From an uncultured Oscillospiraceae bacterium (GTDB lineage Bacteria > Bacillota > Clostridia > Oscillospirales > Oscillospiraceae): DNA of 39,326 nucleotides. The DNA lies in the NCBI GenBank assembly GCA_944387015.1, contig CALXDH010000022.1, positions 1 to 39,326 of the forward strand. Reading direction: 5' to 3'. The notes below the pieces were generated by a model. The model searched no databases. It was given only the letters and a program-made list of their open reading frames with translations, and was not told where the DNA came from. Below, in pieces: positions 1,515 to 17,151 of this stretch (positions are counted from its first letter, which is position 1; every line of letters begins with the position of its first letter). The translations under genes were made by a program, and so were the position numbers.

Positions 1515-1531
1515 GTGTCCGATTCGGACAC
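1515..1531. repeat. 17-bp palindrome copy 1 (gene junction)
   Basis: GTGTCCGATTCGGACAC, perfect apart from the central base. It begins one base after the terminase stop codon and ends 13 bases before the next start codon. First of seven copies in the prophage. Confidence 0.9.
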
Positions 1532-1532
1532 G

Positions 1533-3332
1533 CTACAAACTAAATCCCGGCTGCTCCATGGCCGCCGCCAGATCCGGCTTTTGATTCCTGGCGATCATCC
1601 ACACCGCCATCACGATGATGGACGCCACCGTGGGGTCGATACGGCCCCGGGACTTATTCTTCAGCGGCTTGCAGTTTCCGTTTCCGTCCACGTAACAGCG
1701 GACGTTGCCGAAGGTCCAGCGGAAGCAGGTGTTGTGGATGTGCAGCAGCTGCTTCCGGGTCATCATGTCGTCCATCTCCTTCATGGCCGGCGACATATTC
1801 CTGAGGTCCTGGGGGATCTCAATGACGGAAACGATGGGCTGTAGCCGCTGGATGATGGTCCGGCTGAGATAGGGGTCAAAGCCCACCATCCGCAGGTCAA
1901 ACGTCTCCCTGGCCCACCGGATCGTGGCCTCTATGTCTCCGTAGTCGATGATGTCTCCCTCGCACAGCGTCAGGAATCCGGCCCTCTCCCAGTCCCGGTA
2001 TGGGACGTGATCCCGCCGCTCCGCTTCTTCCACGGTTCCACGGGGCCGCCAGATGTAAGGCAGCAGCACCGCCGTATCCAGTCCCGGCTGGGGCGGAAAC
2101 AGCAGCACAAAGGCTGTCAGGTCCTTGCTGGTGGAGAGGTCCACCCCGCCGTAGCAGAGCTTCCCGGTCAGGTGCTCCTTCACCCACTTCTCTCGCTCCG
2201 TTTTCTTGCTGGGGCCCCACTGGGTCTTATCGTAAAGGGTCAGGGAGATCCAGCTCACCGCCTTGACAGAGATCCACTGGTTGAGCCGCAGCCAGCGGAA
2301 GAGCTTCTCCCCCGCCTCGCTGCGCCGGGCCTCCATGGCCTCCAGCCGCAGCGTTCGGAGCTTCAGGTGTTTGCCCAGGGAAGGATTGCAGAGGTACCAA
2401 AGATTTTCATCCCAGATGTCAATATCCTTCAGGTCGTCCGGGTCATCCCCGAACATGGCCGTCAGGCCGTACAGGATCGGCAGCCAGTTGGGCAGATCCC
2501 GTGCCAGCAGATCCTCCTGGGCCTGGGCCATGTCCTCATCGGACACATGACGCAGGGAAAGCACCTGCCGGGGATCTCCGCCTTCGTCCAGGATCTTGCG
2601 CAGCCGCCGGGCGTCCCGGACGCCCACAGCTTTCTCGTGGACCTCCCAGCCAATGGACCCCCGGTCGGGGTCATCGCCGGCGGTGGTCAGCACGATCCAC
2701 ACCGGCTGCTTCCGGCCGGAGCCGGCGCCGAAGGTCATAATGTCCCACAGATCCCGGTTGGGCTGGGCGTGGAGCTCGTCGAAGATCACGCAGCTGGGCT
2801 TGTAGCCGTGCTTGGAATAGGCCTCAGCCGAGAGGACCGCCATAATCCCCACGATTTTCCACTTGTATCCGCCGTTGCCGGTCCGTACCCGCTGCCGGTA
2901 CTCCACACGACGGCGGGATTCGATGATGTGCAGCTCTCCCCTGGCCACCATCTTGGCCGTCCAGGGTGCGGTGGTGAGCATATACACGGCGGCATTGAAT
3001 ACGATGGAAGCGTTGTCCTTATCCGCCGCGCAGATATAGACCTTCGCATTCAGCTCTCCATCGGCAAACAGGTGGTAGATGCCAAGCGCCGCTGCCAGTT
3101 CGCTCTTTCCGTTTTTCTTGGGGATCTCCAGATAGAGGTACCAGTATTTCCGCAGAGCCTCTCCGGTTTCCTCATCAGGCTCCATGGTGCTGTAAAACTG
3201 CATCAGGGCATCCGTCTGCCAATCGTACAGGCAGAAGTTTTTTCCGGTGTCTGTGGTGGGAAGGCGAGAGATAAACTGGCAGACAAACTCCCCCGCCGCC
3301 TCATCCATGTACACGCTGGATCTTACCGGCAT
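1533..3332 (-). CDS. terL: Phage terminase large subunit
   Basis: This 599-aa packaging motor has an ATPase half followed by a nuclease half. The Walker A-type loop is IPKKNGKS at residues 70-77 and the Walker B is CVIFDELHA with D185-E186. The C-terminal part has GVDLSTSKDLTAF, which fits the first acidic residue of the RNase H-like nuclease. Size and motifs match the Terminase_1 family that partners with P27-type small subunits. It follows terS by 3 bases and precedes the small membrane gene. A copy of the prophage palindrome starts one base after its stop codon. Confidence 0.95.
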   Translation of the reverse strand: MPVRSSVYMDEAAGEFVCQFISRLPTTDTGKNFCLYDWQTDALMQFYSTMEPDEETGEALRKYWYLYLEIPKKNGKSELAAALGIYHLFADGELNAKVYICAADKDNASIVFNAAVYMLTTAPWTAKMVARGELHIIESRRRVEYRQRVRTGNGGYKWKIVGIMAVLSAEAYSKHGYKPSCVIFDELHAQPNRDLWDIMTFGAGSGRKQPVWIVLTTAGDDPDRGSIGWEVHEKAVGVRDARRLRKILDEGGDPRQVLSLRHVSDEDMAQAQEDLLARDLPNWLPILYGLTAMFGDDPDDLKDIDIWDENLWYLCNPSLGKHLKLRTLRLEAMEARRSEAGEKLFRWLRLNQWISVKAVSWISLTLYDKTQWGPSKKTEREKWVKEHLTGKLCYGGVDLSTSKDLTAFVLLFPPQPGLDTAVLLPYIWRPRGTVEEAERRDHVPYRDWERAGFLTLCEGDIIDYGDIEATIRWARETFDLRMVGFDPYLSRTIIQRLQPIVSVIEIPQDLRNMSPAMKEMDDMMTRKQLLHIHNTCFRWTFGNVRCYVDGNGNCKPLKNKSRGRIDPTVASIIVMAVWMIARNQKPDLAAAMEQPGFSL

Positions 3333-3335
3333 AGG

Positions 3336-3854
3336 CTACTCCGCTTCCGCCAGCGCCGCTGCCTGCCGCTCTCGGAGTTTGCGGGTAAACTCGTCCGCCT
3401 CATCCCCGGCCGGGGCCCGGGCAGCGTTCTGGATGGCCGGAGGAACCACGATCCGACACCGGGAGGTAACGGAGAGGCCCATGGCCTCCGCGCAACTCCG
3501 GGCCTGCTTGAAGTAGGTGCCCTGGATTCCGGTCCACTCTCTGGCCAGCTTCTCATTCCCCGTCCGGATAGCCGCGCCGGCTTTCTTGTCCGCCCGGAGC
3601 CAGCGCTCCCGGGAGAGAAAGTACTGGCCCAGCACATCCCGGTCCAGCTCCGCATACAATCCGGCGGCACGGAGGATCTCCCCGATCTCCCGGTATTCCC
3701 CGTGGAGCCGCTTGGGCAGCCATTTGGGCGGCACCGCCGCGTCCGGAGGAGGCACATGGACCTCCCGGTCCAGCCGTTCGTCTTTCTCCGCCGCAGTCAG
3801 GTGTTTACGGCCATTGGCCTCCACCACTGCCGTGGGCTGTCGTTTTCCGGGCAT
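3336..3854 (-). CDS. terS: Phage terminase small subunit, P27 family
   Basis: A 172-aa protein beginning MPGKRQPTAVVEANGRKHLTAAEK, a typical P27-family opening, followed by the conserved DRDVLGQYFLSRERWLRA helix region and a C-terminal segment ending in a charged helix. The P27 family recognises the packaging start site and hands DNA to TerL. Its stop is 3 bases from the terL start. Upstream are a variant copy of the prophage palindrome (3873-3889) and the methyltransferase. The HNH endonuclease gene further upstream fits the HNH-TerS-TerL set of cos-packaging phages. Confidence 0.9.
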   Translation of the reverse strand: MPGKRQPTAVVEANGRKHLTAAEKDERLDREVHVPPPDAAVPPKWLPKRLHGEYREIGEILRAAGLYAELDRDVLGQYFLSRERWLRADKKAGAAIRTGNEKLAREWTGIQGTYFKQARSCAEAMGLSVTSRCRIVVPPAIQNAARAPAGDEADEFTRKLRERQAAALAEAE

Positions 3855-3872
3855 CCCGCACCCTCCTTCCTT

Positions 3873-3889
3873 GTGTCAGATTCGGACAC
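3873..3889. repeat. 17-bp palindrome copy 2 (one mismatch, gene junction)
   Basis: GTGTCAGATTCGGACAC differs from the consensus at position 6 of the left arm. It lies between the methyltransferase stop (3892) and the terS start (3854). Like copy 1, it begins 1-2 bases after the stop codon of the upstream minus-strand gene. Confidence 0.8.
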
Positions 3890-3891
3890 CG

Positions 3892-4653
3892 CTATGCGAT
3901 AGCCAATTCCGCCGCCCGCTCTTTCACCCGCCGGCAGGCGGTTTCGTAGATAGCCTGGTCCTTTTCGAATCCCATGCACCGGCGTCCGGTGTTCAGGCAC
4001 GCCACAGCTGTGCTTCCGCTGCCCATGCAGTTATCCACCACAAGTTCCCCGGGGTCGGTATAGGTGCGGATCAGGTACTCCAGCAAAGCCACCGGCTTTT
4101 GCGTGGGATGGTACCGCTTCTCTCCCCGGTTGGGGTAATGCAAAACGGAACGTGGGTAATTGGTATATTGCTGGACACTTTCTCCTGACATGGAACGGTA
4201 GACAGAACTCGTTTTCCCGCCCCGCCGGACGATGGGCTTTTCCAGCTTCACCAGGCCCTGGGGATTGTAGGTAGGCTGCCGCTTGTAAAAGACCAGGATC
4301 TGCTCGTGAGAGCGCAGCGGCTGGCGGTGGCTGTTGGCAAACCCGACTGGGGAACTCTTCTCCCAGATCAGGTCGTAGCGAAACAACTTTCTGGCGCTGT
4401 TGATCAGAGCCGTGGTAAAGGGTTGGGCCGCAAACAGGACCAGGGCTCCCTTAGGCTTCACAATCCGCTGGTACTGCTCCCAAAGCGGCGCAAAGGGGAT
4501 CACCGTGTCCCAGGCACAGGCCGTGGTGCCGTATGGAAGATCACACAGAACCAGATCCACCGAGCCGGTCTCTACCCGGGATAATCCCACCAGGCAATCA
4601 GAGCAGAAAAGCCGTATCTGATTTGCAATGTTTTGCGTTTTGGTTTCCTCCAC
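3892..4653 (-). CDS. Phage DNA methyltransferase, N6/N4 beta class
   Basis: A 253-aa SAM-dependent amino-methyltransferase. The catalytic motif DLPY (residues 38-41) lies near the N terminus, and the SAM-binding motif is near the C terminus (DNCMGSGST, about residues 207-216), preceded by YHPTQKPVALLEYLI. This IV-to-I order is the beta class, which includes N6-adenine and N4-cytosine enzymes. The start is a GTG at 4653 with GGGGAG just upstream; ATG is absent nearby. No restriction endonuclease is beside it, so it is probably an orphan that protects phage DNA or modifies packaging or regulatory sites. The target sequence cannot be read from the gene. Confidence 0.92.
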   Translation of the reverse strand: MEETKTQNIANQIRLFCSDCLVGLSRVETGSVDLVLCDLPYGTTACAWDTVIPFAPLWEQYQRIVKPKGALVLFAAQPFTTALINSARKLFRYDLIWEKSSPVGFANSHRQPLRSHEQILVFYKRQPTYNPQGLVKLEKPIVRRGGKTSSVYRSMSGESVQQYTNYPRSVLHYPNRGEKRYHPTQKPVALLEYLIRTYTDPGELVVDNCMGSGSTAVACLNTGRRCMGFEKDQAIYETACRRVKERAAELAIA

Positions 4654-4873
4654 TTCTCCCCGCCTCTGCCGGGCGGGAAAATTTTTATCTCCAGTTCGGA
4701 CCCCGCCCCTCTCCGAACTCCCCGTGGGGAAAAAATCTCGCGTGAAGGGGGGCGTGCGGTCTTACGCAGATCCGCTGAAACTTTTTTGACCCGGGGGCGG
4801 GGTCTGCAAGGAACCCCCTCCGCGCATCCGCGCACGTGCAGCCGCATATGCGTGCGCCCAAAGCTGCGGGCAA
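4654..4873. other. GC-rich gap between HNH and methyltransferase, candidate cos region
   Basis: There is no convincing gene in these 220 bases. The stretch is very GC-rich with C/G runs (for example around 4790-4820) and short T/A tracts. In HNH-TerS-TerL phages the cohesive-end site lies between the HNH gene and the small terminase gene, so this is the best place for cos. The cut site itself cannot be read from one sequence. Confidence 0.4.
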
Positions 4874-5260
4874 TCAGGACCGGTACCGCCGGCGAAACGC
4901 CTCACATTTTGCCCGGCTTTCCGCCATGGTCTTGCGGCTGTGGCAGGAGTGGCAAAGGCTTTGCAGATTGCTCCGATCCGTGAACTTCGACCAGTCTCCG
5001 TTGTGCGGCTCCACATGGTCCACATCCGTGGCCCTGGTGCGGATACCACGCTGTGCACATTCCCGACAAAACGGTTCCCTCAGAAGCTGCTCGGGTCGCA
5101 GATCATTCAGCCACTCCGGCGTGAGGTACATCCAGCGCCAGGACTTGGACTCCTCGCTGCGCCGGGTGCTGTCTTTGGGCTTGTGGGCTGCGCAGTATCC
5201 ACCCGGCACCAGGACGCAGCAGCCAGGATGCCGGCACGGCCTGAGCGGTTTTTGTGCCAT
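4874..5260 (-). CDS. HNH endonuclease associated with packaging
   Basis: A 128-aa HNH nuclease of the type that works with terminase in cos-packaging phages. It has an N-terminal Cys/His cluster (CRHPGC...CAAH) and the HNH core: CRECAQRG, then DVDHVEPH, then NLQSLCHSCHSRKT, giving both zinc Cys pairs and the catalytic DH. I chose ATG 5260 because GGAGGTGATAGCCCG precedes it; a start 21 bases upstream lacks such a site. It is the first gene after the early-operon terminator and so may mark the start of the late region. Confidence 0.92.
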   Translation of the reverse strand: MAQKPLRPCRHPGCCVLVPGGYCAAHKPKDSTRRSEESKSWRWMYLTPEWLNDLRPEQLLREPFCRECAQRGIRTRATDVDHVEPHNGDWSKFTDRSNLQSLCHSCHSRKTMAESRAKCEAFRRRYRS

Positions 5261-5280
5261 CGGGCTATCACCTCCGGGCA

Positions 5281-5337
5281 AAACAAAAGAGCCTGGGCCG
5301 ACACGTCCGCGATTTGCGGTTCATGTGGCTCAGGCTC
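5281..5337 (-). terminator. Probable terminator at the end of the early operon
   Basis: On the minus strand, GAGCCTGAGCC (5337-5327) can pair with GGCCCAGGCTC (5299-5289), followed by a T-rich TTTTGTTTT. A smaller hairpin sits in the loop. The arms differ at one base. It lies between the cysteine-rich small gene and the HNH gene. Confidence 0.5.
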
Positions 5338-5515
5338 ATTGGCTCAGGCTCAAATCGATATTCAAAAATCGCTCCCGCTTGCAATGGCGGCAATAGGCAT
5401 ATGCCTTGACCTTGCCATCCGGTGGGAGCCGGAGGAGTTTCATCATTCCGCATACAGGGCAGATGACCCATCCATCCGTTGAGACTAGTTTAGCAGGTTC
5501 GTGCGCAGTATTCAA
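5336..5515 (-). CDS. Cysteine-rich KTR-type zinc-ribbon protein, 59 aa
   Basis: Short minus-strand frame reading from a TTG at 5515 (AGGAAA upstream). The protein contains WVICPVCGMMKLLRL and later AYCRHCKRERFLNIDLSL, that is two CxxC pairs about 18 residues apart, typical of the cysteine-rich KTR family common in Clostridia mobile elements. The KTR signature itself is degenerate here (MMK). A stop lies nine codons upstream of the region shown by the frame, so no ATG start is available. The 3' end overlaps a tandem duplication of GGCTCAGGCTCA. It is probably a small nucleic-acid-binding protein; no function is established. Confidence 0.7.
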   Translation of the reverse strand: MNTAHEPAKLVSTDGWVICPVCGMMKLLRLPPDGKVKAYAYCRHCKRERFLNIDLSLSQ

Positions 5516-5572
5516 GTCGATTTCCTCACTTTCTTCAGAGTGTGCTTACTTTTCCACTAGATTTCAAGATTG

Positions 5573-5597
5573 ACGCGTGCGCGCGCCTGCGCGCGAC
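5573..5597. repeat. GCGCGC-rich direct repeat downstream of the Rep gene
   Basis: TGCGCGCG occurs twice, separated by CC (5578-5585 and 5588-5595), next to ACGCGT. It can also form short self-complementary structures. It lies in the 87-bp gap between the HUH Rep gene and the KTR gene. It could be a structured 3' end or part of a nicking origin; nothing here proves either. Confidence 0.35.
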
Positions 5598-5602
5598 ATC
5601 TT

Positions 5603-6331
5603 CTAAAACAAAAGCCCCGATTTCTTCGGCAGGATCCAGCTGCCATAGTAGTACGCGCCGAAGTCGTTTACCGTTTGCCCCCGGCGCGCCCAGAGCACAT
5701 TGTCCGGGATCTCGATGACGTTGCTCTCATCGTCCCACTCCAGCGGAGGCGGAATGCTCTGGGAGAGCGAACGGTTGCAGCTCCACGGGTGCTTCCCCAG
5801 TGGGATCTTGAATCCGTCCGGCCGCTCCTTGTTGAAATACTCCGCCAGCCTTCGGTAACCGCCTTCGGCCCGGAGCACGGGCTCATCATCCACTTCCCCG
5901 CCCCGCCAGAGATACCGGACCTCGGCCGGCGAGAACTGACTATCCCGGAGGACCAGGTGGATGTGGTAGCGGTGGTCCCCGTGGCGGCCTTCAATACAGC
6001 CAATCCAGTCAAACGGCTCTCCGTTCCGCCACCGCAGCAGCCGGGCACGGTATGCCCGGAAGTACCGGCGGACTCCGTCATAGTCCTTGGGCAGATGCGC
6101 AAAGTCATAGGTCTGCGTGTAATGCGTCCCTTCGTAGCCAAACAGTGCCATTCGCAGTTCCAACCGGTCCACCTGGGTCCGCGTCACAGCGCTGTGGGGC
6201 CCCTTGCGGATCTGCCTCTTGTCCGCGGCATCCTGCCGGGTCCCAGATGGGCCAAGCGGAGGCCGCAACGACCGGCACTCCTTGATCAGCGGGCCCGCCC
6301 GCTGCAGCGTACAATGCCATACTGCACTCAT
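5603..6331 (-). CDS. HUH-type rolling-circle replication-associated protein
   Basis: A 242-aa protein resembling the rolling-circle Rep / phage G2P-type family. It has the metal-binding HUH motif in HRYHIHLVL (H123, H125) preceded by WIGCIEGRHGDHRY, and a tyrosine in GGYRRLAEYFNKE (Y165), the spacing expected for a single-Tyr HUH nickase. HUH enzymes cut one DNA strand and stay bound through the tyrosine. I chose ATG 6331 because it overlaps the stop of the previous gene as ATGA. Such a gene in a tailed phage that also encodes an iteron-type initiator and DnaB is unusual in principle, although similar genes occur in Clostridia prophages. Confidence 0.75.
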   Translation of the reverse strand: MSAVWHCTLQRAGPLIKECRSLRPPLGPSGTRQDAADKRQIRKGPHSAVTRTQVDRLELRMALFGYEGTHYTQTYDFAHLPKDYDGVRRYFRAYRARLLRWRNGEPFDWIGCIEGRHGDHRYHIHLVLRDSQFSPAEVRYLWRGGEVDDEPVLRAEGGYRRLAEYFNKERPDGFKIPLGKHPWSCNRSLSQSIPPPLEWDDESNVIEIPDNVLWARRGQTVNDFGAYYYGSWILPKKSGLLF

Positions 6332-6546
6332 ATGTAATGCATCGCCTCCTCCACACTGCGGAAATACTGGGAGCTGTACACATGACCGTGTGTCCGTTCC
6401 AACCTCACCAGCATATCGCACTCCCACACCGGCAGCGCTCTGGTGGTGCTGGCGGTGACCGTGAAATTGCCCAGCGTCCGGGTCAGGGAGATCTCCCGCC
6501 CGGACGCCATGGCACGGCTCAGCTGCTCCAAATCATTGGGTGACAA
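6328..6546 (-). CDS. Small phage protein, unknown function
   Basis: A 72-aa protein starting from TTG at 6546 and ending in VYSSQYFRSVEEAMHYI. No ATG is available in frame except an internal one at codon 13. It overlaps the Rep gene start by ATGA, which supports translation of this frame. I do not recognise a family. The charged, beta-rich composition suggests a small soluble protein. It lies in the chain of tightly packed small genes between ssb and rep. Confidence 0.6.
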   Translation of the reverse strand: MSPNDLEQLSRAMASGREISLTRTLGNFTVTASTTRALPVWECDMLVRLERTHGHVYSSQYFRSVEEAMHYI

Positions 6547-6551
6547 AAGAT

Positions 6552-6746: not shown

Positions 6747-6765
6747 ACGATTTCATTCGCTCCTT

Positions 6766-7803: not shown

Positions 7804-8204
7804 CAAAACGGCAGTTCCCCTTTCTCCTCTTCCGGCAGCTCCTGGAACTCTCCGGAAGGCGGCGTGTCCGAATCGGACACCGTCCGCTTGCTGTCTCCAA
7901 AGTACACGCTATCCGCCACCACCTCGGCGCTGCGGCGACGGCCGCCGTCTTTGTCGGTCCAGTCCCGGATCTGGAGTCTGCCCTCCACCACGGCCATGCG
8001 GCCTTTGGTGAAATACTTGCTGACGAACTCCGCCGTGGAGCGCCAGGCTACCACGTCGATGAAGTCCGTCTCCTTTTCCCCGCTCTGGGACTTGTAGTCC
8101 CGGTCCACGGCCAGGGTCAGCGCGGCCACAGCAGTGCCTCCCCCGGTGCGCCGCAGCTCAGGGTCACGGACCAGCCGGCCCATGAGAACAATTTTATTCA
8201 GCAT
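7803..8204 (-). CDS. ssb: Phage single-stranded DNA-binding protein
   Basis: A 133-aa OB-fold SSB. The N-terminal core MLNKIVLMGRLVRDPELRRTGGG, then FIDVVAWRSTAEFVSKYFTKGRMAVVEGRLQ, is the family signature. The acidic tail ends EEEKGELPF, the usual protein-interaction tip. I chose ATG 8204 because it matches the family start and follows GGAGGGGGATCAAG. The DNA encoding the disordered tail contains palindrome copy 3, read as VSDSDT, between the OB fold and the tip. It probably acts with the DnaB and initiator proteins of the same operon. Confidence 0.95.
   Translation of the reverse strand: MLNKIVLMGRLVRDPELRRTGGGTAVAALTLAVDRDYKSQSGEKETDFIDVVAWRSTAEFVSKYFTKGRMAVVEGRLQIRDWTDKDGGRRRSAEVVADSVYFGDSKRTVSDSDTPPSGEFQELPEEEKGELPF
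7864..7880. repeat. 17-bp palindrome copy 3 (inside ssb)
   Basis: GTGTCCGAATCGGACAC, a perfect match to the consensus. It lies in the codons for the flexible tail of SSB and is read as V-S-D-S-D-T. Confidence 0.9.
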
Positions 8205-8466: not shown

Positions 8467-8467
8467 T

Positions 8468-9023: not shown

Positions 9024-10479
9024 GCTGATCCTCCATTTCCGGCAATGGCATCCACCAGTAACCGACGTCGTATTCGCCATGGGACGGTTCCTCCAGCTCG
9101 CAGCCCACATCCGTATCCACGAACGGGTAAAGATCGCTGTAACATCCCACACAGCGGGCGGTGCCATAGCACCATTCGCCCAAGGCATTGTCCCAGCGCA
9201 GAATCACCAGCTGCTGGTCCGCCGGCCAGTGGTCCTCATCCAGTGGCTGCCACTGTGCCAGGGCGGGCTTGGGTACGGGATCATCGGTCAGGCCGTAGAG
9301 ATAATCCGTACTGACGCCCAGTGCCTGGGCCAGGCGTGGAAATGCACCAGACCCCGGCAGGTTTCCGTTTTCCCAGGCGCTGTAAGTAGCCTTGTACTCT
9401 CCAATCTTTTCCGCAAAGGCCGCCCGGTCTAGACCAGTTGCCTCCCGAGCCGCCCTGAGCCGCTGGGAAAACCGCTCCCGCCGCACTTGCCAATCCTCCG
9501 CTGACAGCTCCACCCGGTTTTCCAGCTTGGGAGGCGGGGCGATGCCGCCGTGATCTTCCGGAGCTGTCTGCGATTCCATCCCCGCAGGCCGGGCATATTG
9601 GCATACAGAGGGACAGGTGTCCCGGTGCAAGCATCCACTGCAGCACCCGGGGCTGTGCCATACACCCCCATGGAAATCCGTATCATAGATGGCCTCTGCG
9701 TGCTGGCAAAATTCTCCCGTCTCCGGGCACTCCTTTTGGCAACCGTTCCACATCAGTGCAAACTTTTTGACGCTGCGGATGCTGTAATCATGATGACCAT
9801 TAACCACATAGTCCAATAACCGGTACTGTGCCTCTACCGGCAGCCGGGCGATCTCCAGCGCCGCAGCCTCCGGGATCTCGTCCCGCTCCCAGCTCCGCAT
9901 GATGCCCGGAACCTTGATGCCGTTTTTGATGGCGCTGAGATTGGCCAGCTTGGTCTTGGAGATCTGCATGGCCTCCGCTACCCGGTCCCGGATACGCCCC
10001 GGGAGATCTTCTCCGGCCTCCCGCCGCTTGACATAGGCCTCCGTCAGACGCTTAGCCTCCTCCGCCAGCAGAGCGTCTGACTTGACTCTCTGCCGGTTGG
10101 CCTCGATGACTGCGGTCATCTCCTGCGCCTTGTCCATTTGCGGCAAGACCCGGCAGAGGACCCGTTGATATTGCGGTGCGTCCGGCTCTCGATCGTGGAG
10201 ACGCCGCAAAGCCGTGATGCGGCTGTGTCCGGAGATCAAACGATAATAGAGCGTCCCCTTGTTTTGGATGACTGTGGGCGGCTCCAAAAGGCCATTTACC
10301 TGGATAGACTCCATCAGCTCCTCCAGCTGGGCGCTTGTGGGCTTGGGGTAAAAATTTAGCGCATTGTCTGCGATGCGGTCCAGGGAGATCCATTGCATCT
10401 CGCCCGATGTGTCCGAATCGGACACATCGGCCAGCTGAGCGTCCAGGATTTCAAAGACATTTACATCACGCTTTGCCAT
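9004..10479 (-). CDS. ParB-like protein fused to XRE HTH and DUF551-like domains
   Basis: A 491-aa multidomain protein. Residues about 27-115 are a ParB/Srx N-terminal domain with SGHSRITALRRL; about 140-230 hold the ParB/KorB-type helix-turn-helix region (VAEAMQISKTKLANLSAIKNG). Next is a cysteine/histidine cluster (CQKECPETGEFCQH...CCSGCLHRDTCPSVC), then an XRE-type HTH (RLRAAREATGLDRAAFAEKIGEY) and a C-terminal W-x-P-L domain resembling DUF551 (ending WWMPLPEMEDQ). It overlaps parA by 14 bases, the usual parAB arrangement. Codons 19-24 are palindrome copy 4. A partition role is likely; the extra HTH suggests that it also regulates transcription. Confidence 0.85.
   Translation of the reverse strand: MAKRDVNVFEILDAQLADVSDSDTSGEMQWISLDRIADNALNFYPKPTSAQLEELMESIQVNGLLEPPTVIQNKGTLYYRLISGHSRITALRRLHDREPDAPQYQRVLCRVLPQMDKAQEMTAVIEANRQRVKSDALLAEEAKRLTEAYVKRREAGEDLPGRIRDRVAEAMQISKTKLANLSAIKNGIKVPGIMRSWERDEIPEAAALEIARLPVEAQYRLLDYVVNGHHDYSIRSVKKFALMWNGCQKECPETGEFCQHAEAIYDTDFHGGVWHSPGCCSGCLHRDTCPSVCQYARPAGMESQTAPEDHGGIAPPPKLENRVELSAEDWQVRRERFSQRLRAAREATGLDRAAFAEKIGEYKATYSAWENGNLPGSGAFPRLAQALGVSTDYLYGLTDDPVPKPALAQWQPLDEDHWPADQQLVILRWDNALGEWCYGTARCVGCYSDLYPFVDTDVGCELEEPSHGEYDVGYWWMPLPEMEDQHESDEA
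10404..10430. repeat. 17-bp palindrome copy 4, extended to 27 bp (inside parB)
   Basis: The core GTGTCCGAATCGGACAC (10409-10425) is extended by CCGAT and ATCGG, giving 13-base perfect arms around one central base. It lies in the first 25 codons of the ParB-like gene, in a linker ahead of the ParB domain. It is the longest perfect copy seen. Confidence 0.9.
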
Positions 10480-11555: not shown

Positions 11556-12838
11556 TTCACATATTTCTCCCGGAATGTATTTGTCTCCGGCCAAAAGGAT
11601 AAATCCACATGACCGGTTCGTCCGTGGCGGTTTTTTGCCACAGTAGCCTCTACAACCACTGGCTCCTGAGGCTTCCGTTCAAATTTCGGGTCGTAATAAT
11701 CCTCTCGGTGAAGCAGAATGATGCCGTCAGCGTCCTCCTCTGCCGCACCTGTGGCACGTAAATCTGAAATACGCGGTTTATTCCCGGTCCGTTTTTCATT
11801 TTCCCGGTTCAGCTGAGCCAGACACAGCACAGGTGCCCCCATCGCTTGAGCAAGCCGTTTGAGCGTGTGCGCCGCCGATGCGTATTCAATATGACTGGCC
11901 TGCCGGCCGGGAAGCAAAAACAAGCTGAAGTGATCTACCACTACCAGCCGGCAATCCTTCCGTGCCCGGACAACGGACGCCATACGGCCCGGCGTATACG
12001 CCTTTCCGGCTGTCACATAGAGCGGCGTCCTTCCAATGATGCGTGCCGCTTCAGATGTTCTCCGGTACTCCTCGTCCGTCATCGCCTCCGTCAAGATCAC
12101 ATTGCTGTCCACCTTGGACACCGCAGCGACGCGGCGAGCCGTGATCTGTTCGGCTGACATTTCCATGGATACAAATGCGACGCTTCCGATGTTGTTGGCG
12201 ACAAATTCAGCGATAGAAATGGCCAGTGCGGTTTTTCCAATGCCCGGACGAGCGGCGAGGAAATAGAGGCCTGAGTTCACCATTCCGCCCCCCAGCAGCC
12301 GATCCAGCTGCCGCAATCCTGTCCGGACAAATGGGGCCTCCCCTGCATCGATGCGTTCCCGATGCTGGAAAAACAAATCGAGCTGCGCCTCGGGCGCCAG
12401 CAGATCCCCGCCGGCACGGGTATTGAGGTCAGAGATCTTCGTCTCCAGAGGCGGCAATATATCCTCCTGTGCCTCTCCCTTATCCAGGGACTCCAGAGCC
12501 TCCCCAAGAGCCTCTTTTAACCCCCGTCTCCTGGCACAGTCCTGTACAATCTGGGCATATTCCGTGGCATTGGCTGCCGTAGGAGTCATCTCCATCAGCT
12601 GAGCAATGTACCTGCGGGTATCGGGAGACGCCTTCAATTCGTCTGCCACAGTCAAACCGTCTACGGGTCTGCCGTCCATATCCATGTTCAGCAGCGTACG
12701 ATAGATCTCCTGATTAAGTGCCAGGCGGAAATCCGTTTCCCGGAGCTTCCCAGCTATCGTGCGGATGCAGCTGCTGTCAATCAGCATCGACCCCAACACA
12801 GCCCTTTCAGCCTCAAGATCTTGGTACTGATTATTCGT
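11552..12838 (-). CDS. dnaB: Replicative DNA helicase DnaB
   Basis: About 428 aa with the DnaB N-terminal domain (QYQDLEAERAVLGSMLID at the start) and the RecA-like motor: Walker A ARPGIGKTA, SMEMSAEQI, Walker B-like LVVVDHFSLF, LAQLNRENEKR, and DLRATGAAEEDAD. It unwinds DNA at the fork and is loaded by the initiator encoded upstream. The usual in-frame start is TTG 12862, but a strong AGGAGG (12853-12848) lies inside that frame, nine bases before an ACG at 12838 where the family normally begins. I use the ACG as the more likely start. Either way the gene overlaps the upstream initiator. Confidence 0.93.
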   Translation of the reverse strand, partial: TNNQYQDLEAERAVLGSMLIDSSCIRTIAGKLRETDFRLALNQEIYRTLLNMDMDGRPVDGLTVADELKASPDTRRYIAQLMEMTPTAANATEYAQIVQDCARRRGLKEALGEALESLDKGEAQEDILPPLETKISDLNTRAGGDLLAPEAQLDLFFQHRERIDAGEAPFVRTGLRQLDRLLGGGMVNSGLYFLAARPGIGKTALAISIAEFVANNIGSVAFVSMEMSAEQITARRVAAVSKVDSNVILTEAMTDEEYRRTSEAARIIGRTPLYVTAGKAYTPGRMASVVRARKDCRLVVVDHFSLFLLPGRQASHIEYASAAHTLKRLAQAMGAPVLCLAQLNRENEKRTGNKPRISDLRATGAAEEDADGIILLHREDYYDPKFERKPQEPVVVEATVAKNRHGRTGHVDLSFWPETNTFREKYVK

Positions 12839-13652
12839 AAATATCCACCTCCTGGCCGTCAATCACGTCCGTACGGACATAGCGCTTGGGCTTTGCCCGG
12901 GGCGCTTCCCCATCGGCAGCAGGTTGGTCCTCCACGTCCTTCCAGCGGGCGTTGTTCAGGTATGTACTGGCATATGGCTTCCCATAGCCGGCCTGCCAGC
13001 TCTCGGAGGCGATCTGCATTTCCAGCGCCCGGCCGATCCGGGCGATCAGAGTGTCATCCGGCTTGAGCTTGTCCCAGGCCCGAATGGCACCCTGCCGGTC
13101 CTCGCTCCGGACGTTGGTACGGTAGTAGGTCCAGAACGCCTCGAACCGCTCCGGCTTCCAGTCGGCGGTCTCCTTGGGTTCCCGCTTTCTGCGCTGCCCC
13201 CCTTGGGGGGCTTTAGGGGGTATATTATTCTTTAAGTCTTTATTTCTTTGTGTCGGGTTTCCCGACAACGGTGTTTCCCGTTGACGGTTTTCCCCGTCAT
13301 CGGTATTTCCCGACAACGGTATTTCACCGTTGTCGGGTTTTCCGGACGACGGTGGTGCCATGTCCTGCAAAATGTAAATATTCCCGCCGAACGTCCCGTT
13401 CTCCTGGTGGGCCTGCTCCCGAACCAAGTAGCCCACTTTCTCCAGCTCGGCAAGCGTATTGCGGATGGAGTCCTTTCCTACCCCTGTAAATGCTGCGAGC
13501 CCGCTGACGCTGAACTCCCAGCCCTCCGGACGGGACATCATCACCGCAAAAAGGCCTTTGGCCTTGAGGCTCAGTCGCTTGTCCGTAATCATAGAGTTAT
13601 ACAGGACTGTAAAGCTCTCCCGCCTGCCAGACCTAACCACGCTGTCGCTCAT
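12831..13652 (-). CDS. Phage replication initiator, winged-helix type
   Basis: A 273-aa protein. Residues about 8-90 form a winged helix (FTVLYNSMITDKRLSLKAKGLFAVMMSRPEGWEFSVSGLAAFTG...IRNTLAELEKVGYLVRE) seen in phage replisome organizers and plasmid-type initiators. A low-complexity linker follows, then a C-terminal helical part with FEAFWTYYR and QAGYGKPYASTYLNNARWKDVE, common in DnaB-loading phage proteins. ATG 13652 has GGACGGTGATTTC upstream. The linker DNA holds six roughly 16-bp repeats next to an AT-rich block, as in lambda O-type origins. It probably binds this origin and recruits DnaB. Confidence 0.85.
   Translation of the reverse strand: MSDSVVRSGRRESFTVLYNSMITDKRLSLKAKGLFAVMMSRPEGWEFSVSGLAAFTGVGKDSIRNTLAELEKVGYLVREQAHQENGTFGGNIYILQDMAPPSSGKPDNGEIPLSGNTDDGENRQRETPLSGNPTQRNKDLKNNIPPKAPQGGQRRKREPKETADWKPERFEAFWTYYRTNVRSEDRQGAIRAWDKLKPDDTLIARIGRALEMQIASESWQAGYGKPYASTYLNNARWKDVEDQPAADGEAPRAKPKRYVRTDVIDGQEVDIYE
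13221..13250. other. AT-rich block beside the repeat array, candidate unwinding element
   Basis: About 30 bases that are clearly AT-rich (TATATTATTCTTTAAG and onward) in otherwise GC-rich DNA, inside the initiator gene and directly next to the repeat array at 13258. This is the arrangement of a DNA-unwinding element at an origin. Confidence 0.5.
13258..13356. repeat. Six ~16-bp repeats inside the initiator gene, candidate phage origin
   Basis: Units starting with TTTCCCGACAACGGT occur with a 15-17 bp period (TTT at about 13258, 13274, 13289, 13306, 13322 and 13339). Two units are nearly identical (13258, 13306), one is inverted in its core (CACCGTTGTCGG), and the others are degenerate. They encode a low-complexity linker (PLSGN-like repeats). 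The location resembles iterons in initiator genes of other phages. Confidence 0.55.
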
Positions 13653-13656
13653 GAAA

Positions 13657-13749
13657 TCACCGTCCCTCAATCCGATCAATCACCCGGAAAAGCCCACTGG
13701 TGGCCGAGCAGACGCCCAGCACCACAAAAAACATCTCCAAACCTGTCAT
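13657..13749 (-). CDS. 30-aa single-pass membrane peptide
   Basis: A short frame MTGLEMFFVVLGVCSATSGL ending in RVIDRIEGR. The first 20 residues are hydrophobic and the tail is charged, so it is probably one membrane segment. AGGGGGTGACCCTCCG before the ATG supports translation. It ends 5 bases before the initiator gene. Peptides of this form are common in Clostridia prophages and have no known role. Confidence 0.55.
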   Translation of the reverse strand: MTGLEMFFVVLGVCSATSGLFRVIDRIEGR

Positions 13750-13785
13750 CGGAGGGTCACCCCCTCCCCGACAGTCGTATGGGTC

Positions 13786-13814
13786 TTGCATTTCCGAGCA
13801 AAACGTGTTATCAT
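13786..13814 (+). promoter_or_regulatory. Candidate plus-strand promoter inside the early operon
   Basis: TTGCAT (13786-13791), 17 bases, TATCAT (13809-13814). It faces against the early operon and is followed by a hairpin-T-run at 13854-13890. No plus-strand gene follows, so it would produce a short RNA. Confidence 0.5.
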
Positions 13815-13820
13815 AATTTT

Positions 13821-13890
13821 GCGATTGTTCTCGGACGCAAGTCCCTGAACCGAGCGCCCTGAGGTTGCCGCCTTGGGGCGTTCTTTTTTT
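13821..13890 (+). ncRNA. Candidate ~70-nt antisense RNA in the early operon
   Basis: This lies in the 160-bp gap between two early genes. After the promoter at 13786-13814 comes a segment that can form CTCGG/CCGAG (13830-13834 with 13850-13854) or the alternative GGAC-GCAA-GTCC, then a 10-bp hairpin and TTCTTTTTTT. The hairpin with T-run works only on the plus strand, so the transcript would be antisense to the intercistronic region of the early mRNA, just upstream of the 30-aa gene and the initiator gene. I cannot match it to a known RNA family. Confidence 0.45.
13854..13890 (+). terminator. Rho-independent terminator of the candidate antisense RNA
   Basis: GCGCCCTGAGG pairs with CCTTGGGGCG (with G-T pairs) around the loop TTGCCG, followed by TTCTTTTTTT at 13881-13890. 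The T-run is on the plus strand, opposite to the surrounding genes. Confidence 0.6.
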
Positions 13891-13909
13891 GTCCATTCCG
13901 TTGAGGGGT

Positions 13910-14164
13910 TCATCTCCTAACCCCCATGATTGCCGCAGCATCTTCCGCGGTGAACCGCAGCACCTTGTCCAGCGCCATCAGCTCATCCAGCTCCCAGCCG
14001 CCCCGGCGCATCCGGCGTCCAAGGGTCTGCCGGGGGATTCCCGTCCGCTCTGCCAACGCCGTTTGGGTGGCAATGTCCCGATCCGTCATATGGTGCTTGA
14101 TAATCTTGGCGATGTCCGCCGTATGCTCCTGTCCAGGGTCCCTTCCCAGTTTTACTTTCGGCAT
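13910..14164 (-). CDS. Small HTH protein, phage regulator
   Basis: An 84-aa protein with a helix-turn-helix in IATQTALAERTGIPRQTLGRRMRRGGWELDELMALDKVLRFT and an opening MPKVKLGRDPGQEHTADIAKIIK. The shape resembles small phage HTH proteins of the DUF739/Cro-like type. AAAGGAGCGAATAACAAC precedes ATG 14164. It is the third regulator-like gene of the early operon and may fine-tune replication genes downstream. Confidence 0.7.
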   Translation of the reverse strand: MPKVKLGRDPGQEHTADIAKIIKHHMTDRDIATQTALAERTGIPRQTLGRRMRRGGWELDELMALDKVLRFTAEDAAAIMGVRR

Positions 14165-14168
14165 GTTG

Positions 14169-14630
14169 TTATTCGCTCCTTTCCACGTCCTGGGATGCCA
14201 GCCGCAGCTCGTAAAAGTCCTTTACGAGTTCACCCAGCTCCCGGACAATCTCGTCGAAAATAGGCCGTTCTGTCTCGTCGATCTGGCCATCCTCGGCGAT
14301 CTCCAGCAGCTGCTTGTCCCGCCGCTTGTCCGCCCACCGGGAAAAGCTGTTGAACAGTCGAATGGTGGCTGCCTGCAGCGTGGTCTGTTCCACCGGTGGA
14401 AGAATGGCCGCCGCCAGCTGGCTGGCGCTTCGCAGGTGCTGCACGGCCAGATACTGACTGTCGTAGAGCACTACCATAGAGTAGGCAATATCGTCCGAGG
14501 GGATCATCTCTCCGGCCTCGATCCGGGCCAGATGCCGCACGCTCAGGTTGAGCAGCTCCGCCGCCCGCTCCTGGGTGTATCCCGCCGCCTCCCGGCAGGT
14601 TTTGTAAATGGTCTTGTCCGTTCCAGACAT
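14169..14630 (-). CDS. XRE-family HTH protein
   Basis: A 153-aa protein with an N-terminal XRE helix-turn-helix (TCREAAGYTQERAAELLNLSVRHLARIEAGEMIP). The rest is a helical domain with an acidic stretch (EIAEDGQIDETERPIFDEIVREL). The C-terminal domain is not recognised. It stops 4 bases before the next gene. It is probably an early-gene regulator; the extra domain may bind a partner protein. Confidence 0.75.
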   Translation of the reverse strand: MSGTDKTIYKTCREAAGYTQERAAELLNLSVRHLARIEAGEMIPSDDIAYSMVVLYDSQYLAVQHLRSASQLAAAILPPVEQTTLQAATIRLFNSFSRWADKRRDKQLLEIAEDGQIDETERPIFDEIVRELGELVKDFYELRLASQDVERSE

Positions 14631-14682
14631 GGTCTTGTCTCCTTCTGTGCGCTATGCTGAGTTCATGAGGTACGCTGGGGGC

Positions 14683-14880
14683 TTATGCACTGGCAGGTGC
14701 CCGGCCCAGGAGCGCATCCACGGTGCAGTCCAGAATGTCCGCTAGTTTGATCAGGTTTGCCGCGCTGGGCAACGCCGCCCCGGACTCCCAGGCAGAAACC
14801 GATGCCTGGGAAACGCCCATGCGGTCCGCCAGTTCATACTGCCGCATTCCCCTGGATTCTCGTATTTTTTTGATTTCCAT
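14683..14880 (-). CDS. Cro-like XRE regulator, first early gene
   Basis: A 65-aa protein that is almost entirely an XRE helix-turn-helix (IKKIRESRGMRQYELADRMGVSQASVSAWESGAALPSAANLIKLADILDCTVDALL). AAAGGAGGAAGGAT precedes ATG 14880. It is the first leftward gene, and its promoter region carries a 25-bp palindrome. Position and size fit a Cro-type repressor that opposes the S24 repressor at 15690. Confidence 0.85.
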   Translation of the reverse strand: MEIKKIRESRGMRQYELADRMGVSQASVSAWESGAALPSAANLIKLADILDCTVDALLGRAPASA

Positions 14881-14903
14881 ATCCTTCCTCCTTTCCCGGA
14901 TAC

Positions 14904-14932
14904 TTGAAACGCTTGTTTGAGTGTGATAATAT
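14904..14932 (+). promoter_or_regulatory. Rightward promoter of the divergent control region
   Basis: TTGAAA (14904-14909), 17 bases, TAATAT (14927-14932). It would drive the membrane-protein gene at 14965. Its -10 lies inside the 25-bp palindrome, so a bound regulator would block it. Confidence 0.55.
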
Positions 14933-14950
14933 AGTTTAAAACTATATTAT
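14926..14950. promoter_or_regulatory. 25-bp perfect palindrome, likely Cro/repressor operator
   Basis: ATAATATAGTTT, one central A, then AAACTATATTAT. It lies between the divergent Cro-like gene and the rightward genes and overlaps candidate -10 elements on both strands. It is unrelated in sequence to the dispersed GTGTCC palindrome. Confidence 0.7.
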
Positions 14951-14964
14951 GGGGTGTTTTGATA

Positions 14965-15363
14965 ATGACCGTGGAACTGATCACCGCCATTGCACCATAT
15001 ATCACTGCCCTGGTTGGCTTGCTGAGCGGCGTATATGCTGTTTCCCGTGCCAACAGCAATCAGTTGACATCTACCTATTTCAGTCGGATGACTGCCGCCT
15101 ATGAAAACCACTGGGCCGCCTTTGCTGAATTTGTCTATTATCCCAACGACAAAACCCGGAACGCTTATGTCGTGGCTGTTTATAATGCCGTGCTTTACTC
15201 TTCCGAGGACGCGGCAAATGGCATACAGGCTTTGTTCCACAAGGCCATTGAGTACACCAGATCCGGACAGTCCGATGCGCGTCAGCTTGATAAGTGGGCC
15301 GGAGACCTTGAGGTGATTTTGCACAATGACGTTCTTCGGTTTCGCGAACGGGGTTCCCGGTAA
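14965..15363 (+). CDS. Membrane-anchored phage protein, unknown
   Basis: A 132-aa protein starting MTVELITAIAPYITALVGLL, with one N-terminal hydrophobic segment (about residues 5-25). The rest is soluble and helical (STYFSRMTAAYENHWAAFAEFVYYPNDKTRNAYVVAVYNAVLYSS). GGGGTG lies 8 bases before ATG 14965; a TTG at 14959 is possible. It lies between the divergent promoter and the repressor. The form, a membrane anchor plus helical cytoplasmic domain expressed beside the repressor, would suit a superinfection-exclusion protein, but no family is recognised. Confidence 0.65.
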   Translation: MTVELITAIAPYITALVGLLSGVYAVSRANSNQLTSTYFSRMTAAYENHWAAFAEFVYYPNDKTRNAYVVAVYNAVLYSSEDAANGIQALFHKAIEYTRSGQSDARQLDKWAGDLEVILHNDVLRFRERGSR

Positions 15364-15689
15364 AAGAATCACACCCCAGATACCACGCCAGCATCTTTCG
15401 GATCAGCCAAAGATCAACGGCCGCTCCTCTGATTCTTTTTTCAGTCTCAGCCTGTTCCAACAATCTTGGCGCTGCAGATCTTGCATCAGACTCCTTTCTG
15501 CTCCTGTTGAAAAAAAACATGGTTTTCCCCTCTCTGCCTCGCGGTTTAGTTTGAAATTGTTTAGCTTGTGGTTATAACTATAATTTCGATATTCGAAATT
15601 GTCAATCTATTTTTTCGAAATTTGAAATCTTTGTACACATTGTAAAATTTCATTTTTTAAAATTGTGTGTATTTTAGGAGGTGATTCCA
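15364..15689. other. Noncoding control region upstream of the repressor
   Basis: These 326 bases contain no convincing plus-strand gene. The left half could hold a short minus-strand peptide (15403-15486, 27 codons, with AAAGGAGTCTG before its ATG), too weak to call as a gene. The right half (15545-15660) is strongly AT-rich and contains a palindrome AATTTCGA-TAT-TCGAAATT at 15582-15600 and related half-sites TTCGAAATTTGAAAT (15616-15628). These are probable operators and promoter of the repressor gene. Confidence 0.5.
15582..15600. promoter_or_regulatory. Palindromic operator upstream of the repressor
   Basis: AATTTCGA, three central bases TAT, then TCGAAATT. A related imperfect site TTCGAAATTTGAA follows about 16 bases later. 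The AT-rich setting 90-110 bases before the repressor start suits autoregulation. Confidence 0.5.
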
Positions 15690-16349
15690 ATGGATGCAGT
15701 AGATCGGCTCTTTGAATTAGTCGATCAAAATTTCAAAGAGCAAAAAGATTTTGCCGCCGCAATTGGCGTCCCTCCTTCGCGAGTAAGTTTATGGCGAAAA
15801 CGCAAGTCTGCTTCTTTTCAGCGGTGTTTGCCCCAGATTGCCGAAGCCCTGGGCACCACCACGGAGTACGTACTCACTGGCAACGGCCCCAAACAAAAAA
15901 GAGCCGTGTCCGAATCGGACACAGCTCTGCCAAAGGGTGCGGAGCATATTGATCTGGGAACCTTCCACCGTATCCCCATTCTGGGCCGCATCTCTGCCGG
16001 GCTTCCCCTCTATGCGGAGCAGCATATTGAGGGATATACCCTGACGGATCTTAACGGCGGCGCCGAGTATTTTGCCCTCCGGGTATCCGGAGACAGCATG
16101 AACGCCGCCCGGATTCAGGACGGCGACATCCTCATCGTCCGCCGTCAGGAAGAGGTGGAAAACGGGGAAGTGGCCGTGGTGATGGTGGGGGACGAGGACG
16201 CCACCGTCAAGCGGTTCTACGCCACTGGCGACACCGTCACCCTGATGCCCCAGTCCACCAACCCGGAGCATCATCCGCAGATCTACGACGCCACCAAAAC
16301 CAGAATCCGGGTCATCGGCAAGGTGGTCAAGGTGGAATTTACATTGTGA
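15690..16349 (+). CDS. S24-type (CI/LexA-like) phage repressor
   Basis: A 219-aa repressor. Residues about 5-62 form a helix-turn-helix (FAAAIGVPPSRVSLWRKR). The C-terminal S24 peptidase domain has the cleavage site ISAG (A103-G104), the catalytic serine in SGDSM (S136) and lysine K174 in ATVKRF. RecA-stimulated self-cleavage would release lysogeny. I chose ATG 15690 because AGGAGGTGATTCCA is the ribosome site; a GTG at 15681 lies inside that site. The linker between the HTH and S24 domains is encoded by palindrome copy 5 (VSESDT, residues 73-78), at a point where repressors are usually flexible. Confidence 0.92.
   Translation: MDAVDRLFELVDQNFKEQKDFAAAIGVPPSRVSLWRKRKSASFQRCLPQIAEALGTTTEYVLTGNGPKQKRAVSESDTALPKGAEHIDLGTFHRIPILGRISAGLPLYAEQHIEGYTLTDLNGGAEYFALRVSGDSMNAARIQDGDILIVRRQEEVENGEVAVVMVGDEDATVKRFYATGDTVTLMPQSTNPEHHPQIYDATKTRIRVIGKVVKVEFTL
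15906..15922. repeat. 17-bp palindrome copy 5 (inside repressor gene)
   Basis: GTGTCCGAATCGGACAC with an imperfect extension (GAGC and GCTC outside one mismatch). It is read as V-S-E-S-D-T in the linker of the repressor. Confidence 0.9.
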
Positions 16350-16355
16350 TTTCCA

Positions 16356-16397
16356 GCCAGCGCGCGGATAAAAATAAATCGTGTCCGATTCGGACAC
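16356..16397 (+). repeat. 42-bp leader module A with palindrome copy 6
   Basis: GCCAGCGCGCGGATAAAA, seven bases, then GTGTCCGATTCGGACAC (16381-16397). It matches leader B at 17110-17151 in 40 of 42 positions. It lies 18 bases before the start of the SAP-domain gene. Confidence 0.85.
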
Positions 16398-16415
16398 GTC
16401 AAGGGAGATAGATTT

Positions 16416-17093
16416 ATGGGATTATTTTCAAATCTATTTAATCGCCCTCTGAAGCTCAATATTTACGATTTGCTATACGCTTATATGCGACGTGGAACGC
16501 CCTGGGGATTTCAGCCGTTGACTTGGAACATGAAGAATTGTTTTGACAACCATGATTTTTCCAAACATTGGGAACGTGTTTTAACTCTGAACCTGATCCA
16601 ACCTGCAGAAGCCCCAGACCGCTTGGAATTTGCCACCATAGAAGAATTGCGCCCCTCTCTAGAACAGTTTAGCTTGAAAAAGAGCGGAACAAAGGCCGAT
16701 ATAATCCAACGGATTATGGACAGCGGACATGGGGTGGAAGTAGCAGGTATGCTTCCGCAGGTAGTGGGCTTGACAGATACCGGGAAAAGCCTCCTTGCAA
16801 AGCATGACTATATCCCCTACGTGATAAAGCGCTGCAAGGAGATTCCATGCGGATATGAAAAAATGTTTGAAAAGAGAGAAAGAGACCAATCTCTGAGCAA
16901 ATATGAAGTCGTTCTGTTTGGATTAAATGAAGAATCTTTTTATACAGATGGCTGTTATGATGAAGAGGACAAAGGATATGCCCGGGATTGCCGAAGGGAA
17001 GCCGAGCGAGATTATCGAGATTTTGTAAAATCTGTGGCATCTGACGCAAAAGCCGACGGCATCGTCATCGACGTAAACAGGTATCTTAACTGA
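16416..17093 (+). CDS. SAP-domain protein, accessory prophage gene
   Basis: A 225-aa protein. Residues about 73-104 (ATIEELRPSLEQFSLKKSGTKADIIQRIMDSG) match the SAP motif, a short helix pair that binds DNA. The C-terminal half is highly charged (EKRERDQSLSKYEVVLFGLN, then EDKGYARDCRREAERDYRDF) and unrecognised. AAGGGAGATAGATTT precedes the ATG. It is more A/T-rich than the structural genes and lies in the lysogenic strand between the repressor and the integrase. With the similar leader in front of the next gene it may form a two-gene accessory unit, but its role is unknown. Confidence 0.7.
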   Translation: MGLFSNLFNRPLKLNIYDLLYAYMRRGTPWGFQPLTWNMKNCFDNHDFSKHWERVLTLNLIQPAEAPDRLEFATIEELRPSLEQFSLKKSGTKADIIQRIMDSGHGVEVAGMLPQVVGLTDTGKSLLAKHDYIPYVIKRCKEIPCGYEKMFEKRERDQSLSKYEVVLFGLNEESFYTDGCYDEEDKGYARDCRREAERDYRDFVKSVASDAKADGIVIDVNRYLN

Positions 17094-17109
17094 TCTGCAT
17101 TCATTTTCC

Positions 17110-17151
17110 GCCAGCGCGCGGATAAAATTAAAACGTGTCCGATTCGGACAC
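17110..17151 (+). repeat. 42-bp leader module B with palindrome copy 7
   Basis: Nearly identical to leader A: an 18-base shared start, two mismatches in the A/T segment, then GTGTCCGATTCGGACAC (17135-17151). It lies 28 bases before the HSDR_N-type gene. Confidence 0.85.

Follow-up and report, generated by a model that had tools for sequence, protein, structure and literature searches.

The window analysed here, positions 1 to 39,326 of contig CALXDH010000022.1 (assembly GCA_944387015.1) from an uncultured Oscillospiraceae bacterium, begins with a prophage that reaches from the contig start to about 19.5 kb, beside a transfer-messenger RNA (tmRNA) gene. The prophage encodes ParA and a ParB-like protein and carries seven copies of a 17-letter palindrome, GTGTCCGAWTCGGACAC. 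The palindrome is in all likelihood parS, the loading site of the prophage-encoded ParB, and its copies would form a dispersed centromere; this reading is based on the confinement of the sites to the prophage, on their occurrence with a family of ParB proteins fetched by protein alone, and on fold and profile matches.

The minus-strand genes of the prophage encode regulators, a replication initiator, a DnaB helicase, ParA, ParB, a single-stranded DNA-binding protein (SSB), an HNH nuclease, a methyltransferase, the terminase subunits and the portal, while the plus strand encodes an S24 repressor, a protein with a weak SAP-domain match, an HsdR_N-type nuclease and an integrase (Table 1; gene calls by our own heuristic). 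The right end was placed by the integrase, the tmRNA gene and the chromosomal genes beyond. The portal gene lies right at the start of the contig, and the capsid family PF05065, the only capsid family sought, was not found in the assembly; part of the prophage is therefore probably missing, and seven copies are a lower bound.

Table 1. Features of the window; copies of the palindrome are listed as putative parS (HTH, helix-turn-helix)
Feature	Position	Strand	Evidence and context
Portal gene	39..1328	-	Contig starts 38 bases beyond the gene
Putative parS copy 1	1515..1531		Exact match; between terL and a small membrane-protein gene (58 amino acids; phrog_502 5e-4), just 5' of the ribosome-binding site of the latter; heuristic gene calls
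Putative parS copy 2	3873..3889		One mismatch; methyltransferase/terS junction, just 5' of the terS ribosome-binding site
Putative parS copy 3	7864..7880		Exact; within the 3' part of ssb (SSB PF00436 6.8e-32)
ParB, 491 amino acids	9004..10479	-	ParB_N/CTPase-type domain, ParB-type HTH, Cys-rich stretch, extra HTH_3
Putative parS copy 4	10409..10425		Exact; within parB, codons 19-24, coding VSDSDT
ParA, 273 amino acids	10466..11287	-	Directly upstream of and overlapping parB; PF13614 2.1e-38; phrog_164 4.7e-51
Inverted-repeat pair, different from the palindrome, ATTTCGATATTCGAAAT and TTTCGAAATTTGAAA	15583..15628		Upstream of the repressor gene; AT-rich, around TTTCGA..TCGAAA; repeats D3/D4
S24-type (CI-like) repressor	15690..16349	+	PF00717 8e-29, PF07022 7.5e-6; judged not to be the binder
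Putative parS copy 5	15906..15922		Exact; within the S24 repressor gene, HTH/peptidase linker (VSESDT)
Putative parS copy 6	16381..16397		Exact; leader of the SAP-domain gene, 49-nt repeated leader
Putative parS copy 7	17135..17151		Exact; in the leader of the gene for the HsdR_N-type nuclease; this leader and the one with copy 6 are 92% identical
HsdR_N-type nuclease	17180..18280	+	phrog_4225, 1.5e-139
Tyrosine integrase, prophage right end	18382..19404	+	PF00589 6.7e-16
tmRNA gene of the host, next to the right end; presumed attachment region	19564..19928	-	Rfam RF00023, 136.2 bits

Six copies are exact and the copy at 3873 (GTGTCAGATTCGGACAC) has a single mismatch. An earlier note, made from the sequence alone, had listed these seven positions and considered the site restricted to the prophage and not expected by chance, and all three statements were reproduced. 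No copy was found past 17151 in a scan of the full window, nor does the host assembly (2,418,289 bases, 72 contigs) contain any other copy with at most one mismatch. When two mismatches were allowed, the whole assembly outside the window gave a single site, which has two (C1:18752), and a reversed-pattern control gave none. The palindrome is thus not common in the host, and a host-wide signal was rejected. A weak match with three mismatches at 2530 was left out of the count. Among 100 dinucleotide shuffles the mean was 0.05 matches at up to three mismatches, and no shuffle reached 8. The looser site class is sparse as well, found in 5 of 291 genomes class-wide (reversed control 2 of 291) and in 8 of 200 genomes in a family sample, against 1 of 200.

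The copies lie up to about 7.5 kb from parB. Copies 1 and 2 are found one base from the stop codon of terL (1533) and two bases from that of the methyltransferase gene (3892) respectively, as the earlier note had said. Several placements recur in relatives: in the Flavonifractor plautii prophage Cormatin GTGTCCAAGTTGGACAC precedes the annotated terS by about 20 bp (compare copy 2), the relative G002 has a site within its SSB gene too (compare copy 3), and most relatives with a long ParB have an in-gene site at a place similar to that of copy 4. A 49-nt leader repeat (16349-16397 and 17103-17151, 92% identical) precedes the SAP-domain and HsdR_N genes, and GC-rich and AATAAA-like leaders preceding parS are also seen in L072, L103, L150, L187 and L189; the repeat is possibly a shared cassette leader of accessory genes. 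Because both central bases occur and the arms change symmetrically in coding as well as non-coding places, the palindrome would suit DNA binding better than an RNA hairpin.

The earlier note had also named a ParA and a ParB-like protein, and both assignments hold. The ATPase domain of ParA begins at residue 1. The recognition helix of ParB lies at about residues 175-187 and the extra HTH_3 domain at about 337-396. PF02195 alone scores below its cut-off on the window ParB (18.9 vs 26.3 bits), and the ParB profile A1 matches Noc (7nfu, 1.2e-18), Spo0J (1vz0, 2.9e-12) and ParB structures in the PDB, several of them nucleotide-bound. No SopB is found among its 12 PDB matches at E <= 0.001. In a Foldseek comparison, an AlphaFold2 model of ParB (mean predicted local distance difference test score 79.7, with values above 90 in most of the core) finds Noc, ParB and KorB (8qa9). 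Residues G84, R87, N128 and R131 are invariant in the A1 alignment and sit where the motifs that bind cytidine triphosphate (CTP) lie, and the Glu of the ParB motifs GERR and ENxQR is mostly not conserved. The window ParB is accordingly predicted to have a Noc/Spo0J/KorB-type fold and is a putative CTPase. As in ParABS systems, the genes for ParA and ParB are adjacent, and among nine relatives with called genes ParA adjoins ParB in all six that bear a ParB. The site family apparently does not depend on the extra HTH_3 domain, because L140 (short ParB), L129 (long ParB) and L134 have no HTH_3 match and their loci still carry the site or a one-mismatch copy. The ParB of L134 (967-2172, minus strand) is fused to a DUF3850/ASCH-like domain.

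Exact matches to the 17-mer were found in at least 120 IMG/VR stretches and at least 117 GTDB genome stretches. Among the matches listed, 80 GTDB genome titles are mostly Oscillospiraceae, Lachnospiraceae, Selenomonadaceae and other Clostridia; about a quarter are other bacteria, mostly with single matches, which were taken for chance without a computed expectation. The GC content of the viral stretches with the site ranges from 0.28 to 0.68. We scanned 49 full site-carrying records, picked mainly for length among the 120 stretches; with two mismatches allowed, each has between 1 and 8 sites (reversed control 0). Profile A1 finds ParB in 28 of them and matches a 29th, G045, at the HTH_3-like end only, and the window ParB as query finds 32, some via HTH_3 alone.

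The earlier note had proposed a search for the motif in related prophages that carry this ParB, and the relation is also found when the search starts from the protein. A phages collection searched with the ParB protein gave five records. Four match in the ParB part, and each of these has versions of the palindrome, with one copy within parB; the fifth (CP063417) matches at HTH_3 only. When IMG/VR was searched with two ParB alignments, the site was found in 98 of 111 loci, namely 70 of 80 long-ParB loci (the best 80 of 95) and 28 of 31 short-ParB loci, with the strict class in 77 (54 long, 23 short). Altogether 240 sites were counted in 1.70 Mb, against 2 in shuffled and 2 in reversed sequence. 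Eighteen of the loci belong to records already reached by the motif; without them the site is present in 80 of 93. In 68 of the 93 it lies within -250 to +200 nt of the start of the parB match, compared with a mean of 6.2 and a maximum of 16 for 2000 random anchors. The palindrome is thus linked to the parB locus and follows ParB, as a parS does in a ParABS system. Among 200 species genomes of the host family, ten have a ParB at E < 1e-60, and all ten loci hold the site or a variant within four mismatches. Six further loci with weak matches (1e-21 to 1e-25) presumably encode chromosomal ParB or Noc; five show nothing and one has a near-palindrome with five mismatches.

The position of the site varies with the length of ParB. 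In most long ParB (~430-540 amino acids) it lies 33-57 nt inside the gene, coding VSxSDT-like peptides, and in most short ParB (~290-365 amino acids) 34-38 nt before the start. Exceptions are L127 (no site), L132 (at +102), L137 (at -449), L135 (start uncertain) and the longer L134 and L138 (both at -38). Three or more sites occur in 43 of the 80 long-ParB loci and in none of the 31 short-ParB loci, thus dispersal belongs to the long-ParB clade. The symmetric variants in the ParB loci are GTGTCCAACTTGGACAC (41), GTGTCCGAWTCGGACAC (25), GTGTCCAAWTTGGACAC (24) and GTGCCCGAWTCGGGCAC (7), along with many imperfect copies, and the host-family loci add GTGTTCAAGTTGAACAC. Base 7 of the site varies with residue 175, where the recognition helix begins: the base is A in 12 of 14 cases that have Ala at this residue and in 6 of 20 that have Lys there (Fisher p = 0.0019). 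The underlying table has 39 rows, obtained from the 80 loci by leaving out 9 unmatched loci and 18 without a strict site and by merging duplicate HTH sequences.

Sites also tend to lie at gene starts. The 80 long-ParB loci contain 132 distinct strict sites. By the heuristic gene calls, 50 of these (38%) fall between genes, compared with 15% at random, and 34 (26%) lie at most 45 bp upstream of a start codon, compared with 7% at random. For 121 of 291 distinct class sites from the fetched loci and the window (42%, against 23% at random), a ribosome-binding-site-like motif with a start codon is found no more than 45 bp away, on one side or the other. Gene regulation could produce this bias toward gene starts, and so could a tendency of the sites to keep out of coding DNA. 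Of the 57 ParB-bearing records that are 28 kb or longer, 50 were tested, and 45 of these match a family of tyrosine or serine recombinases (host flanks may be part of the records), so that the system looks like a dispersed centromere on integrating phages.

Computation thus supports parS with an adjacent ParA-ParB pair, a Noc/Spo0J/KorB-type fold and a site family that tracks ParB across many phages. Dimers of ParB would bind each copy through the ParB-type HTH and not through the extra HTH_3 domain, close as a CTP clamp and slide onto neighbouring DNA. Several loading sites might then coat and condense the phage DNA and give ParA its cargo. As the element also integrates, this cargo would be the phage genome in its excised, replicating or episomal form. 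Gene junctions, coding linkers and gene leaders, where the sites lie, would be places that tolerate them with little damage. At gene starts, that of its own gene included, ParB may also damp transcription.

Several observations weigh against this interpretation. A centromere is not obviously needed on an integrated prophage. The seeds of the ParB alignments came mainly from motif-carrying records, 13 of the 111 ParB loci have no site at all (some loci are partial), and the association of residue 175 with base 7 carries no correction for kinship. The stricter pattern GTGTCCRAWTYGGACAC is present in 5 of the 10 host-family genomes with a strong ParB match and also in 3 of the 190 without one, and a search of IMG/VR with the own peptides of P0001 gave no relatives. 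Finally, the 49 site-carrying records comprise 28 with ParB, 4 with a DUF3102 protein instead and 17 with neither, 11 of the latter being about 20 kb or less. Three of the DUF3102 records, G002, G036 and G045, hold 6, 3 and 4 sites (up to two mismatches) without ParB and encode DUF3102 behind ParA; in G002 and G045 the sites are partly at the same places as in the window. The fourth, G012, has one site.

DUF3102 as a second reader of the same palindrome was not supported, with class sites in only 4 of 28 loci of DUF3102 relatives (L425, L426, L433 and L435), of which L425, L426 and L433 are G045, G036 and G002 again. Because DUF3102 relatives in general lack the site (24 of the 28 loci), the simplest account of the sites in ParB-less records is that the par region was exchanged recently and the sites stayed behind, or that they are served in trans. 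A perfect but different 16-bp palindrome, in several sequences, is found within the DUF3102 gene itself in 12 of the 28 loci (L425-L452, some of which are near-duplicates), at about +203 to +261 nt of the match and just after the HTH, against 0.0065 per 180 bp elsewhere in the loci. It has the look of a centromere placed within the gene of a ParA partner that is not a CTPase. DUF3102 proteins behind ParA (L302, L305, L310) start with a MAKFDMGEFAKTL-like peptide, as do several ParB of the family (L148 and others), and this is perhaps a ParA-contact peptide.

As an alternative to a centromere, the earlier note had suggested a stoperator array bound by the S24 repressor. This agrees with the dispersal of the sites, two of them directly behind stop codons, and with the copy inside the repressor gene, which the relatives G015 and G045 also have within their S24 gene. 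However, none of 42 loci fetched by protein as S24 relatives has the site, and none has this ParB; the control is useful but imperfect because close relatives are few (mostly 27-40% identity, 2 of 42 at least 50% identical over most of the protein). Nor is there any copy upstream of the repressor gene, where the other inverted-repeat pair lies and could, from its sequence, be the repressor's own operators. The repressor is therefore a most improbable binder, and the suggestion was given up. Another phage regulator, either of the HTH proteins at 14169-14630 and 14683-14880 or the HTH_3 domain of ParB, is hardly more probable. HTH_3-type domains often bind palindromes of 16-17 bp, and proteins like that at 14169 occur in G002, G015, G019, G034, G040 and G045, but the site is anchored to parB and persists in the three loci whose ParB has no HTH_3 match. 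It is also very unlikely that the palindromes are a relic or mosaic signal, kept through recombination and now without function in some phages. The ParB-less G002, G036 and G045 would be explained by this, yet ParB is intact and most copies are exact in the window and in the relative G015, and the perfect symmetric variants in distant phages point to selection.

A rival that keeps ParB as the binder and changes its main task deserves more weight, although it is still doubtful. ParB would then be a genome-wide regulator like KorB, with clamps that silence or tune phage promoters and partition as a secondary role. The enrichment of strict sites between genes and near starts is in line with this, as are the two copies in near-identical leaders of genes behind the repressor and the recombinase families in most ParB-bearing records, which make a partition role not obvious; KorB itself is a precedent (PMC11790492). 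On the other hand, several of the sites take up the space from a stop codon to the next ribosome-binding site, with little room left for a promoter, others lie within genes as expected if sites merely avoid damage, and ParA stood beside ParB in all six ParB-bearing relatives with called genes. The centromere reading can also be widened into a tentative picture that we think possible but would not favour: ParB clamps at several sites would act as a phage-wide organiser, for partition or condensation of the excised genome and for gene tuning, in a sizeable group of phages that integrate, mostly those of gut Clostridia, and ParB could be swapped for a CTPase-less DUF3102 protein behind the same kind of ParA, often with a centromere-like palindrome in its own gene.

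Some neighbouring features lie apart from the par system. For the HsdR_N-type nuclease, a scan of prophage proteins revealed no second restriction subunit, and PADLOC gave no match. The tmRNA was missed by an ARAGORN run on 19300-20100. Contractile-tail genes on the minus strand at 33928-39029 (baseplate J, baseplate hub, sheath initiator and Mu gp48-like) adjoin chromosomal genes, and this region looks like a second prophage or a tailocin-like element running off the contig.

With parS as the preferred reading, an anonymous palindrome becomes a readable marker, in that the presence of ParB foretells the site in most of the tested loci and the site, conversely, often points to a ParB, and the marker holds in viral stretches of 28 to 68% GC. 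The symmetric site changes provide a natural panel of ParB-parS pairs for studies of ParB specificity, and the question is raised why integrating phages keep a multi-site centromere. An experimental host is at hand in Cormatin, an inducible F. plautii prophage that PMC10197239 lists with chromosomal coordinates among induced prophages; the 28 kb of it that were covered (L146) have four palindromes. None of the papers listed in a search of open PubMed Central text contained the 13-base core of the palindrome. As far as searches of that text reach, the site family, its ParB family, the integrating phages carrying both and the in-gene parS are new, while N15 already provides a phage centromere made up of several inverted repeats and KorB a regulator of the ParB family.

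The inverted repeats (IR) of phage N15 are dispersed away from sopAB, and the earlier note had compared the palindrome with this centromere. N15 carries SopAB with four centromere sites, IR1-IR4, with the IR core GTGCGACC..GGTCGCAC, according to PMC7205306. Both phages encode a ParAB pair and have several inverted-repeat sites away from parAB, and the outer GTG...CAC is common to the IR core and the palindrome. The dispersed centromere is strongly supported by the ParB relatives fetched by protein, but the likeness to a SopB-type system and to a linear plasmid did not stand. The sites here have an odd length of 17 bp, number up to 8 per record and include one within parB; ParB matches Noc, Spo0J and KorB, ParA lacks the N-terminal HTH of type Ia, and the prophage is integrated (no search for a protelomerase was made). 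The stoperators of mycobacteriophage L5 are dispersed repressor-type sites near gene ends and are asymmetric, unlike the palindrome, which the S24 repressor here does not track.

Plasmid RK2 has many dispersed palindromic OB sites. Its KorB is described in PMC11790492 as a ParB-family CTPase clamp that slides from OB operators to distant promoters. The model of the window ParB matches KorB, whereas the site sequence is another one and the carrier is a phage and not a conjugative plasmid. Chromosomal ParABS and Noc systems include the closest solved structures by sequence profile and likewise have multiple sites per replicon; their parS, given as TGTTTCACGTGAAACA in PMC10197239, differs from the site here, which is phage-carried and spread over the element and whose ParB has extra C-terminal domains. 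The srpMRC genes of the SXT/R391 integrative and conjugative elements, according to PMC4489591, encode active partition of a kind called type II on an integrating element. The system described here has a Walker-type ParA with ParB and is found on a phage, but it shares with SXT/R391 the presence of partition genes on an element that integrates, and partition would here serve the excised or replicating form.

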